From contig JAFMCL010000013.1 of NCBI GenBank assembly GCA_017857815.1, positions 1-64,000 of the forward strand: a stretch of 64,000 bases of DNA, written 5' to 3'. The position numbers were made by a program, and so were the translations under genes. The stretch comes from Flavobacteriaceae bacterium. Its GTDB lineage: Bacteria; Bacteroidota; Bacteroidia; Flavobacteriales; Flavobacteriaceae. The first letter of the stretch is position 1, and the number at the start of each line of letters is the position of its first letter. This document shows, piece by piece, positions 17,849-23,430 of this stretch. The notes below the pieces were generated by a model. The model had not been told where the DNA came from, did not search any database, and worked only from the letters and a program-made list of their open reading frames with translations.

Positions 17849-18073
17849 ATGGTAGATGCATTAGTAGTTCTAGTTTTTCTAGCGGTGTTGTTTGGAGGAG
17901 TATACTGGTACGCAGATTACTCTACTCGTACAGGGAAAGAAGTAGATGAAAACAAAAATTTTATACCTGATTCTTGGGAAAAAAATTTCTTGTGGTTCTT
18001 TTCTGGAAAAGCATTAATAATGTTGATTGTAGGAATAGCAATCGGATTTGTACTTGCTAAAGTGATCGGTTAG
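17849..18073 (+). CDS. Small two-helix membrane protein
   Basis: A 74-residue protein with a predicted helix at residues 3-22 (ALVVLVFLAVLFGGVYWYA) and another at about 52-72 (GKALIMLIVGIAIGFVLA), joined by a polar loop containing the patterned DENKNFIPDSWEKNF. I do not recognise a family. The loop with DxNxNxIPD(S/A)WE resembles a conserved flavobacterial hypothetical protein, but no function can be assigned. Clear ATG start and its own intergenic region of 196 bp upstream; it converges on the tRNA-Val gene downstream. Confidence 0.7.
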   Translation: MVDALVVLVFLAVLFGGVYWYADYSTRTGKEVDENKNFIPDSWEKNFLWFFSGKALIMLIVGIAIGFVLAKVIG

Positions 18074-18165: not shown

Positions 18166-18169
18166 ATTG

Positions 18170-18244
18170 TGGGTGTTAAGGGATTCGAACCCATGACCTC
18201 TACCCTGTCAAGGTAGCGCTCTAAACCAACTGAGCTAAACACCC
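18170..18244 (-). tRNA. tRNA-Val (anticodon GAC)
   Basis: A 75-nt cloverleaf read on the minus strand: 7-bp acceptor stem GGGTGTT/AACACCC, D arm TAGCTCAGTTGGTTTAGAGC, anticodon stem CTACC/GGTAG with loop TTGACAG giving anticodon GAC, and T loop TTCGAAT. One mismatch (T-T) sits in the T stem. The 3' CCA is not encoded (the bases after the discriminator A are CAAT), so CCA must be added post-transcriptionally. On a quick look the loop can be misread as Asp GTC from the plus-strand bases; reading the correct strand gives Val. Confidence 0.93.
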
Positions 18245-18946
18245 ATAAGAAACTAACTATTTTAAACATTTAAATAGAGCCCAAATGTCGTTTTGGTTTC
18301 AAATATATTACTTCTTACTCAATTGATAATATTTTATAGCATTAATTCTAATGACCTATTTAATAGGGCTAGAAATACCAGAACTTACTTAAAAGGATGT
18401 GACTATCAATAAAAAGAAAACCCCTGATTACTATTTACTAAGAATCAAAAATTGATTCAAAGCTTTTTGCTTCACCAGAGGTTTAGTTATTTTTATATCT
18501 GAAACATTAGCAGTTACAATTATCCTATCAACTAAACTTCTAAATAACACCATCTCTTTTCTAATTGATTTTGGCAGCCATAGATTTGAGGTGGCTCATT
18601 AGCGATCAATAACTAGAATAATCTGTTATAAATTTATAACTTAAACAGCAGGATATAACCTGATAAAAGCAATTGATCTCTCAAAATATTTGTTATTCAC
18701 CAAACAGTTAGGTCTTAGTGTGTAGATTAATTCTAATGTTAACTAAATGTAAAGAATTAAACTGTTAAACGTTTAGCCAATTTATTTCAAGAAAATCACA
18801 AAAGTGAACCCATTTGCATAATTACAAATAACGTATTTTAAAGGCTTCAAAATGATTATAAATGAATTTATAAGTTACATTATTACGCATTCAACAAAAT
18901 ATAATTTTAAGGTTTAGAAAGGAGTTTACAAATATGAATTTGACTC

Positions 18947-18954
18947 TAAATTTG
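18947..18954 (+). promoter_or_regulatory. Putative -7 box of an orphan transcript
   Basis: TAAATTTG matches the Bacteroidota -7 consensus TAnnTTTG exactly. It lies about 100 bp upstream of the orphan terminator at 19051. A proper -33 TTG at the right spacing is not seen, so by itself this is weak. Confidence 0.3.
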
Positions 18955-18959
18955 TAAAA

Positions 18960-19080
18960 TACAAAGAACAATATCTATTGATCTTAAGAGCAGTAGATTT
19001 AAAAAAAGTTTTGGTTTAGTTATTTAATTGTTTGATTTTTATTTCGTTTTTGGGTGGGAGCTTTCCCACCCATTTTTTTT
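18960..19080 (+). ncRNA. Candidate small RNA (~120 nt)
   Basis: Proposed only from its borders: a -7-like box at 18947-18954, implying a start near 18960, and a strong intrinsic terminator ending at 19080. No plus-strand gene lies upstream for 870 bp, so the terminator must serve an unannotated transcript. The interior is AT-rich, with no long open frame and no match that I recognise to 6S RNA, tmRNA, SRP RNA or RNase P. Transcription and exact ends are unproven. Confidence 0.35.
19051..19080 (+). terminator. Strong orphan rho-independent terminator
   Basis: A perfect 9-bp GC-rich stem TGGGTGGGA / TCCCACCCA (19051-19059 with 19064-19072), a GCTT tetraloop and at least eight T (19073-19080). 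It is oriented for the plus strand only. It is the best intrinsic terminator in the window, yet no annotated plus-strand gene precedes it. Confidence 0.88.
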
Positions 19081-19228
19081 ACAATAGTTTCGTTTAAAAG
19101 AAATAAACACTATTTTTACTAAAATCCTTTATCTTGAAAATCAATAAAAAACACCTTCGCTATGCTATCATTTTTGGGGTTGTAAAAAAAATTATCATAG
19201 TAATCATTTTACTGACAAATTTTAAATA

Positions 19229-19435
19229 GTGAAAAAAAGCATCAATCGTTTTAAATATATTTTCATTTTAATTCCATTGGGGATTGCCATCAGATTCATT
19301 GATATACAAGTTACTGACGGCTTTCTTTCCTCAAACGAGAGTAAGGATCATTTCATGTTTATTGGAGGTCTAGTAATTATCGTAATAGCCCTTTTGTATT
19401 CCGTTCTGTATTTTGAGAAAAAATCTAATTCTTAA
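19229..19435 (+). CDS. Small membrane protein, unknown function
   Basis: A 68-residue protein with two hydrophobic segments (about residues 9-25, YIFILIPLGIAIRFI, and 44-63, FIGGLVIIVIALLYSVLYF) and a basic N-terminus (MKKSINRFK). The start is GTG at 19229; no in-frame ATG precedes it after the previous stop. I do not recognise a family. It lies 47 bp upstream of the flavin reductase gene and could be co-transcribed with it. Confidence 0.6.
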   Translation: MKKSINRFKYIFILIPLGIAIRFIDIQVTDGFLSSNESKDHFMFIGGLVIIVIALLYSVLYFEKKSNS

Positions 19436-21079: not shown

Positions 21080-21115
21080 CTTAAAAGCACGACTTAAATA
21101 AGTCGTGCTTTTAAG
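21080..21115 (-). terminator. Perfect 17-bp hairpin downstream of the M1 peptidase
   Basis: Inverted repeat CTTAAAAGCACGACTTA / TAAGTCGTGCTTTTAAG with only AA between the arms. On the minus strand it starts 5 bp past the peptidase stop and is followed by a T-rich tract (TTGTGTTTTTT), so it can terminate the peptidase operon before tatA. Because the stem is fully symmetric it could also work on the plus strand. Confidence 0.75.
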
Positions 21116-21120
21116 AGATT

Positions 21121-23430
21121 TTAATTTTCTGTTTTTTTAATAAAATTTTCAAAATCGCTAGCAGCCTCCTTTTTGGGCCAGCTGTTATTTGACGTATCAA
21201 TATCTGCAGTTTCTAAATCAGGATCAACCAAAATATTAGTAATTTCTTTGTCTGAAACCATAACTTTTTGAACCACTTTGTCATTTTTTCTCCAAACTTG
21301 AACAGGATATGTAATTCTTTCTGAAGTACCATCGGCGAAAGTATACTCAACAATTATGGGCATTACGAGGCCTCCAGGCTTTTCAAATTCAATTTCATAA
21401 AAATACTTAGGAACCTTAAGCCCCTTAAGTTGTTCTTCAGTAAAATTATCTTTAACATAAGTATCCAATACCGTAGAATGGTCCATTGGAGAACCTTCTG
21501 CATATTCAGGATTAAAATCTTCACTGTCTTCCATTACTGTAAAAACAGCTGGAGGAAGATCATCTAAGGTCATATTATAAGCGGCCAATTTTCCTTTAAT
21601 TTCAGCATTTGGTTCTTTTGAAATAAAAAACTTTTTAACACTTTTCACGCCAATATCGACGTAATCTGTAGAATAAAACCATCCTCTCCAAAACCAATCC
21701 AAATCGACTGCAGAAGCGTCTTCCATTGTTCTGAAAAAATCTTCAGGAGAAGGGTGCTTAAACATCCAACGTTGGGCATAGGTTTTAAAAGCGTAATCGA
21801 ACAGCTCTTTGCCCATAATAGTCTCCCTAAGTATATTTAATGCTGTGGCTGGTTTGGCGTAAGCATTTGGACCTAATTGATAAATATTTTCAGGATTGGA
21901 CATGATCGGAGAAATAAAACTCTGATCTCCTCCCATATAATTGACGATTTTTGAAGGCGCCCCTCTACGAGAAGGGTAGTTGTCCAAGCCCAAAATTGAA
22001 TTTGGAAATTTTTTCCCAAACTCTTGCTCTGTCAGATATTGCATAAAAGTATCTAACCCTTCATCCATCCAGCCCCATTGACGCTCGTCAGAATTCACAA
22101 TCATTGGAAAGAAATTATGGCCAACTTCATGGATAATGACACTAATCATTCCAAATTTAACCCTATCAGAATATGTTCCATCTTTTTCGGGACGACCATA
22201 ATTCCAGCAAATCATCGGATATTCCATCCCTTGATTTTTGGCATGAACTGAAACCGCTTTAGGATAAGGATATTCAAAAGTAAATTTTGAATACGTTTTT
22301 AAGGTTTGAGCTACTGCTACAGTGGAATATTCTTCCCACAAAGGGTTCCCTTCCTTAGGATAAAGGGAAACAGCCATCACTTTTCGTGACCCAACTTTTA
22401 CAGCCATCATGTCCCAAATAAATTTCCTAGAGCTTGCAAATCCAAAGTCTCTAACATTTTCAGCAATAAACTTCCAAGTTTTTTTCTTTTCTGAAAACCC
22501 TGCTTCACGTACTTCAGCTTCTGCTTGGTTTACAATAATTACTGGTTTATCAAAAGTATTTTGAGCTTTTTTATACCTGTTTAATTCTTGTTTAGATAAG
22601 ACATCTTTCGGGTTTTGTAAAACGCCAGTTGCATCGACAATATGATCTGCAGGAACGGTCAAATTAACTTCGTAATCCCCAAAGTTTAATGCAAACTCAC
22701 CATTACCCCAAAATTGATAATTCTGCCATCCTTCCACGTCATTATAAACGGCCAATCTTGGGAAAAACTGGGCAATTACATAAGCGCGATTTCCATCTTC
22801 GGGAAAATATTCAAATCCTGATCGTGCTCTATTTTCGACGTGATTATTAATGTTATACCACCATTTTATAGAAAAAGTAAACTGATCTCCACTCTTTATC
22901 GGAGTAGGCAAATCAATTCTCATCATCGTAGCGTTGATAAGGTGCTTGAGTGGACGATTGTTTGCATCCTTAACGGACTGAATATTAAAACCACCATCAA
23001 AAGGATCTTTAAGGTAATCCGAAACAAATTCTTCAACCATCATTAATGGTTTAGCTCCATTCCCATCTTTTTCATGGGCAATAGCATCTTTCTTTCTTAT
23101 ATTTTGCTCCAACTGTACCCACAAATAAGACAATGCGTCGGGCGAGTTGTTTGTGTAAGTGATTTTTTCTTCCCCATAAAGGCGTTTATTTTTGTCGTCC
23201 AACTCTATGTCCATAATATAATCAACCTGCTGTTGATAGTAATCTACTCCAGGAGCACCAGAAGCCGTTCGGTAACTGTTGGGAGTAGAAAATTCTTGAT
23301 AGAGCTGCTTAAACTTATTGTTATTGGTGTGACCACCTTCTTTTGCAACTACCGAATCGGATTGCGCTAACAAGCCTGAGGTAAAAAAAAGGGTCGCCAA
23401 AACAATTATATGTGAATGAATTTTGTTCAT
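21121..23430 (-). CDS. M1 family metallopeptidase (aminopeptidase), exported
   Basis: A 769-residue protein with a signal peptide (MNKIHSHIIVLATLFFTSGLLAQ). The gluzincin core shows HEVGH (His434, Glu435, His438) with the third zinc ligand Glu457 in MDEGLDTF, and the exopeptidase motif GMEYPM replaces GAMEN. The N-terminal beta domain and a long C-terminal region (to ~769, partly beta-rich) match a Bacteroidota-specific M1 subgroup. Likely a periplasmic or surface aminopeptidase. On the minus strand it is followed by the tatA gene after a hairpin, and preceded by the DUF6702-type and carboxypeptidase-regulatory proteins. Confidence 0.93.
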   Translation of the reverse strand: MNKIHSHIIVLATLFFTSGLLAQSDSVVAKEGGHTNNNKFKQLYQEFSTPNSYRTASGAPGVDYYQQQVDYIMDIELDDKNKRLYGEEKITYTNNSPDALSYLWVQLEQNIRKKDAIAHEKDGNGAKPLMMVEEFVSDYLKDPFDGGFNIQSVKDANNRPLKHLINATMMRIDLPTPIKSGDQFTFSIKWWYNINNHVENRARSGFEYFPEDGNRAYVIAQFFPRLAVYNDVEGWQNYQFWGNGEFALNFGDYEVNLTVPADHIVDATGVLQNPKDVLSKQELNRYKKAQNTFDKPVIIVNQAEAEVREAGFSEKKKTWKFIAENVRDFGFASSRKFIWDMMAVKVGSRKVMAVSLYPKEGNPLWEEYSTVAVAQTLKTYSKFTFEYPYPKAVSVHAKNQGMEYPMICWNYGRPEKDGTYSDRVKFGMISVIIHEVGHNFFPMIVNSDERQWGWMDEGLDTFMQYLTEQEFGKKFPNSILGLDNYPSRRGAPSKIVNYMGGDQSFISPIMSNPENIYQLGPNAYAKPATALNILRETIMGKELFDYAFKTYAQRWMFKHPSPEDFFRTMEDASAVDLDWFWRGWFYSTDYVDIGVKSVKKFFISKEPNAEIKGKLAAYNMTLDDLPPAVFTVMEDSEDFNPEYAEGSPMDHSTVLDTYVKDNFTEEQLKGLKVPKYFYEIEFEKPGGLVMPIIVEYTFADGTSERITYPVQVWRKNDKVVQKVMVSDKEITNILVDPDLETADIDTSNNSWPKKEAASDFENFIKKTEN

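Follow-up and report, generated by a model that had tools for sequence, protein, structure and literature searches.

The window (the whole analysed stretch of Flavobacteriaceae DNA, 64,000 nucleotides long) contains an intergenic gap whose size, given as 984 bp in an earlier sequence-only reading, is borne out by the positions of the flanking tRNA and open reading frames. The last plus-strand open reading frame upstream stops at 18073, so that no plus-strand gene stands directly upstream, as had been claimed, and the first one downstream begins at 19229. Between them lies tRNA-Val(gac) on the minus strand (18169-18244), which indeed has a terminator of its own (18165-18148, minus strand). In this gap the same reading had seen a promoter-like box and a strong terminator, and had proposed from them a hidden small RNA (sRNA) of ~120 nt. 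Both signals are present on the plus strand: TAAATTTG at 18947-18954 fits TAnnTTTG exactly, and a perfect 9-bp GC-rich hairpin followed by eight T occupies 19051-19080. The features, together with those that emerged from the comparison with relatives, are the following:

18888..18899, plus strand: upstream box in the variant of the window's clade, CATTCAACAAAA, 59 bp 5' of the promoter box
18947..18954, plus strand: promoter -7 box TAAATTTG (TAnnTTTG), from the sequence and its conservation in relatives
18959..19080, plus strand: predicted small RNA, ~122 nt, with its start placed from the position of the box
18973..18998, plus strand: the window's 5' hairpin, 8 bp + 2 bp, from folding
19015..19046, plus strand: U-rich unpaired core, from the alignment with relatives
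19051..19080, plus strand: intrinsic terminator with 9-bp stem, GCTT loop and eight T, from the terminator scan
19111..19118, plus strand: likely -7 box TATTTTTA for the operon that follows (ORF 19229, flavin reductase); not part of the RNA

The terminator is made up of TGGGTGGGA, GCTT and TCCCACCCA (19051-19072), with the eight T running to 19080, and six of its nine pairs are G-C. It is one of two terminator-like sites between 17500 and 20000, where shuffled sequences give a mean of 0.9 (sd 1.1); the other is the terminator of tRNA-Val(gac). The putative transcript folds better than its shuffles (z -2.88; 3 of 200 shuffles were equally good), chiefly owing to the terminator. In Flavobacterium psychrophilum the TAnnTTTG consensus is located at position -12 to -5, according to the accessible portion of PMC9723704. 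By itself such a box is not above chance in DNA this rich in AT, and a single box with a single hairpin is little proof taken alone; it is the conservation in relatives that gives the box its meaning. That the RNA belongs to no recognised class agrees with our covariance search, in which Rfam yielded only the tRNA at gathering scores. At E values up to 10 the gap region gave eight weak sub-threshold matches, none of them credible; the best of these, sraA (on the opposite strand) and the L20 leader, owe their scores to the terminator and the T-rich stretch and were rejected.

Distribution and conserved anatomy

Compared with 100 related genomes, the region 18900-19090 gave long matches in the same genus only. 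The members of this genus are uncultured Flavobacteriaceae or Bacteroidetes that, judging from the record names, are presumably mostly marine. The first 12 loci to be inspected all have homologues of ORF 19229, the flavin reductase and the O-methyltransferase downstream of the match, and tRNA-Val(gac) is present as well in nine of them. A covariance model (R1), built from eight genus copies with the window excluded, matched 18 of the 22 genomes of the genus when E values up to 1 were allowed. Discounting a match in G016 (E 0.2) that lies elsewhere in the genome, and counting G018, which R1 missed and where BLAST found the locus, the sRNA or its remnant stands at the same place, upstream of the flavin reductase gene, in 18 of the 22 genomes. 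As for the others, the flavin reductase locus of G016 has a different gene upstream and no sRNA, the contigs of G013 and G006 start too near this locus for the presence of the sRNA to be judged, and no flavin reductase was found in G020. The proposal could have failed on a hairpin confined to close strains; instead, the whole unit is conserved genus-wide and at the same place. Within the window R1 scores the window copy highest (43.7 bits, E 6.7e-05). Its second match, a weak one (E 0.57) at 21082-21174 on the plus strand, falls between two minus-strand genes on a hairpin whose tail is rich in T, and probably is an ordinary terminator region.

The core was matched at most once per genome among the 22. 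A second, decayed copy of the sRNA occurs in one genome, G010 (G010:C2:7736-7848), away from the main locus, where it is followed by a truncated start of the DACLC gene, the gene for a membrane protein that follows the sRNA in most relatives. Outside the genus, R1 with strict filters matched four of 299 family genomes, namely three of the genus and G242, the latter at an unrelated genome position (E 6.1e-4). A search of 397 family genomes with the core pattern found G014 and G242; the reversed control also had two matches, so the one in G242 may be due to chance. The G242 locus (G242:C1:12490-12596, minus strand), which belongs to another genus, has a 5' hairpin, AATTCGATTGTTTGGTTTTTTTT and a terminator in the same order, possibly by chance. 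A looser core pattern gave 107 stretches in the genome collection, 15 of which were matched by R1, apparently on genus contigs already covered. No sRNA match was found in viral contigs, and no convincing relative outside the genus in the family genomes or the genome collection.

The layout in the genus begins with a box AAGTCATAAAAA and 46 unconserved bases; then come TAnnTTT(G/A), the 5' hairpin, a core of ~36 nt, and the terminator. Mean pairwise identities were calculated from 14 well-kept copies, leaving out as decayed the three of the window's clade, that of G002 and the second copy of G010. They amount to 93% in the U-rich core, 85% in the upstream box, 79% in the terminator and 74% in the promoter box, with 73% for the flavin reductase gene; the stretch upstream of the upstream box has 53%, the 60 nt after the terminator 47%, the part from promoter box to core 46%, and the 46-bp spacer between the boxes 38%. 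The most conserved part, unforeseen in the earlier reading, is therefore the core, predicted to be unpaired, and not a hairpin. Of the 16 copies outside the window's clade, 13 carry AAGTCATAAAAA exactly 58 bp 5' of the promoter box, with the proviso that G004, G012 and G021 have an imperfect promoter box and that the candidate at 58 bp there ranked among the three best, not always first. The spacing is 59 bp in G008; the upstream box is absent in G002 and in the second G010 copy. Its distance to the core varies among copies, and the fixed spacing to the promoter box suggests that it is a candidate site for a regulator. In the window, G018 and G011 it appears as the variant ATTCAACAAAA, with a spacing of 59 bp to the promoter box downstream; the window's CATTCAACAAAA shares 8 of its 12 letters with the genus box. 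The combined pattern of box and promoter has ten matches in the 22 genomes, eight of them at the sRNA gene, against four in the reversed control, so that no wider regulon of this layout is seen in them. The sRNA gene, in sum, carries a conserved promoter of its own (promoter box and upstream box, 13 of 16 copies) and, in the window and its relatives, a terminator of its own, broken in G018, G011 and G002.

The 5' hairpin folds at a similar position in most copies despite differences in sequence (z -3.1 to 0.7, mean -1.2, 18 copies); in the window's clade it is no better than shuffles. Compensatory changes, which the earlier reading had proposed to look for in an alignment of related flavobacteria, are present in both the 5' hairpin and the terminator of a model-fitted alignment (18 copies, 17 distinct, with a spurious antisense row of the G008 locus dropped). 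Here the share of cells that pair is 92.7%, and changes on both sides occur in 12 of 18 pairs, compared with 5.4 in shuffles and 1-5 with the partners slid, though such an alignment is biased toward structure. When eight copies (seven of them distinct) are aligned without fitting, pairing holds in 95.2% of cells; the three pairs changed on both sides are matched by 122 of 500 shuffles, and the six cells changed on both sides by none of the 500.

Divergence in the window's clade

Between the window and G018 the flavin reductase gene is 96% identical, and the downstream promoter stretch after the terminator 97%. Over the sRNA the figures drop to 63% (5' part), 62% (core) and 67% (terminator), inside the range of the empty gap (40-78%), while in the main group the core is nearly unchanged at far greater divergence; constraint on the sRNA has apparently been relaxed in this clade. 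It looks weak or gone there, judging from these alignments, which the sequence-only reading had not foreseen. The window core is shortened and altered (GTTTGATTTTTATTTCG against GTTTGGTTTTTTTATTATTTCG in the genus), its 5' hairpin is unlike that of the genus in sequence and on its own folds no better than shuffles, and the terminator stems of the sisters G018 and G011 are disrupted. An sRNA diverging like the gap, with broken terminators in its sisters, may be dying in the window. The window copy could thus be a relic that no longer works, the family being real elsewhere; the shortened core, the low identity to G018 beside neighbours at 96-97% and the broken stems of G018 and G011 all speak for this. 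Against it stand the window's TAnnTTTG box, still exact, and its terminator, still perfect and with a compensatory change from C-G to T-A relative to the genus consensus (read by eye); on balance we lean away from the relic, while regarding it as a genuine possibility. With promoter and terminator intact, the window copy would be either a late survivor or an sRNA with changed targets, in a clade (window, G018 and G011) where selection would be relaxed. The DACLC gene, found in 16 of the 22 genomes, is absent from these same three; this is a single event and may be a coincidence. Among the window and its sisters one can follow, as a natural case, how an sRNA gene loses constraint beside intact neighbours. 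Upstream of the promoter, the stretch 18800-18887 is 68-78% identical among the three sisters, compared with 24-52% in the rest of the gap.

Predicted mode of action and known small RNAs

The hidden plus-strand sRNA of ~120 nt finds its support in the comparison, and the support is comparative in kind: promoter box, 5' hairpin, core and terminator are conserved genus-wide. We consider it probable that this is an independent sRNA gene, with a regulator acting at the upstream box, a core that pairs at translation starts, and relaxed selection in the window's clade. A regulator bound at the upstream box would control the sRNA gene; the core (UUGUUUGGUUUUU...AUUAUUUCG) would pair with A-rich regions around the start codons of several mRNAs, complements of UUGUUUGGUUU at mRNA starts being the expected sites; and this pairing would block ribosome loading, as do GibS and FopS in Bacteroides. 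Flavobacterium johnsoniae mRNAs are described, in the portion of the literature accessible to us, as devoid of Shine-Dalgarno sequences and favouring A before the start codon, and by analogy a U-rich core suits the masking of such starts. A more specific version, in which a genus-specific sRNA has its core tuned to A-rich, Shine-Dalgarno-free starts of many mRNAs, its regulator site is not shared with other genes, and its loss in the clade followed that of the neighbouring gene, is put forward as a rather doubtful conjecture.

The search for targets gave no clear excess of seed-complement sites: AAACCAAACA occurs within 25 nt before an ATG 161 times in the 22 genomes, compared with 101 times for the reversed pattern, and among the matches listed at least ten are the sRNA's own antisense strand. 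Twelve of 20 such places that were read precede open frames of at least 190 aa, and no target recurs across distant genomes among the seed-complement sites of the 22 genomes. Most suggestive is a gene for a SusC-like receptor in G005 and G019, where the core complement AAACCAAACAA stands immediately before the ATG (predicted duplexes of -20.5 and -20.7 kcal/mol), but these two genomes are close relatives. A site in G000 has a stronger predicted duplex, -35.6 kcal/mol.

The length, the U-richness and the almost letter-by-letter conservation of the core would also fit a protein-binding RNA (decoy or sponge), its core then serving as the site of an RNA-binding protein and not as a seed for pairing; RbpB of Bacteroides binds unpaired stretches of sRNAs, as the accessible part of PMC11697453 describes. 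Conservation of the core by itself fits a pairing seed equally, and we judge the protein-binding explanation unlikely.

Most of what is known about regulatory RNAs in this phylum comes from Bacteroides and F. psychrophilum. GibS and FopS of Bacteroides have conserved unpaired seeds and terminators and pair at start codons, and FopS, with 12-15 copies per genome, acts mainly on SusC-like mRNAs (PMC7366714, PMC11697453, from the portions available). As far as these portions go, the predicted sRNA resembles both in being an intergenic gene of Bacteroidota with its own promoter, a conserved unpaired seed region and an intrinsic terminator, and by analogy in its proposed pairing at translation starts; it differs from both in the 5' hairpin ahead of the core, and from FopS in being single-copy as a rule. 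Neither at gathering scores nor with E values up to 10 did the Rfam search give a match to FopS or GibS, although a FopS model is possibly absent from the Rfam copy used. Rfp18 of F. psychrophilum, in what is accessible of PMC9723704, has at least three stem-loops and protease targets and is conserved within its genus; both are sRNAs of Flavobacteriaceae with a TAnnTTTG-type transcription system and are kept within their genus, whereas the present one, compared by description alone, has two hairpins. Our sRNA is in the size range of 6S RNA, unlike it in having neither a long bulged hairpin nor an Rfam match. The literature on flavobacterial and marine sRNAs, at the level of titles and abstracts, comprises Rfp18 and general work and describes no such sRNA; our literature search found no sRNA reports for uncultured marine Flavobacteriaceae. 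The conserved flavobacterial sRNA would thus be a new family of a known kind, lacking an Rfam match and predicted to be expressed, and its promoter, candidate regulator site and defined core make its regulator and targets testable.

The neighbouring DACLC gene

The DACLC protein has ~90 aa and one likely membrane helix. Since its gene starts roughly 35-70 nt from the T run in most copies, and the window's clade lacks alike the gene and a well-kept sRNA, the sRNA might be read as the terminated leader (attenuator) of this gene. Several observations contradict this. Of 19 copies, 15 show TAnnTTT(A/G) no more than 75 nt beyond the T run, where base shuffles would give 5.3, and ten of these 15 show it at 19-23 nt. 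In the sister genus the DACLC gene occurs without the sRNA in G455 and G410, both of the loci that have upstream sequence (in G237 the contig ends at the locus). Conversely, in G008 (G008:C116) the sRNA is intact and the adjoining DACLC gene is broken by stops, while G002 has the gene and a decayed terminator. The sRNA and the DACLC gene are thus neither always found together nor free of a likely promoter between them. The likely intervening promoter, the gene without sRNA and the stops in G008 make a leader role quite improbable; the likely promoter of the next gene and its occurrence without the sRNA favour an independent sRNA gene.

That the sRNA encodes a small peptide, for which its size alone would speak, can practically be dismissed: the T runs of the core number 6, 7 or 8 between genomes, and these one-base length changes shift any frame and exclude a conserved one.

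Directly 3' of the DACLC stop, on the same strand and before the homologue of ORF 19229, the loci of G001 and G010 and others of the genus carry a conserved TTTAATTGTTTGGTTTTTATATTTTAG that resembles the sRNA core (as many as 27 of 27 letters, reached in G010, and 26 for G001); it may act as promoter of ORF 19229, or be a related element.
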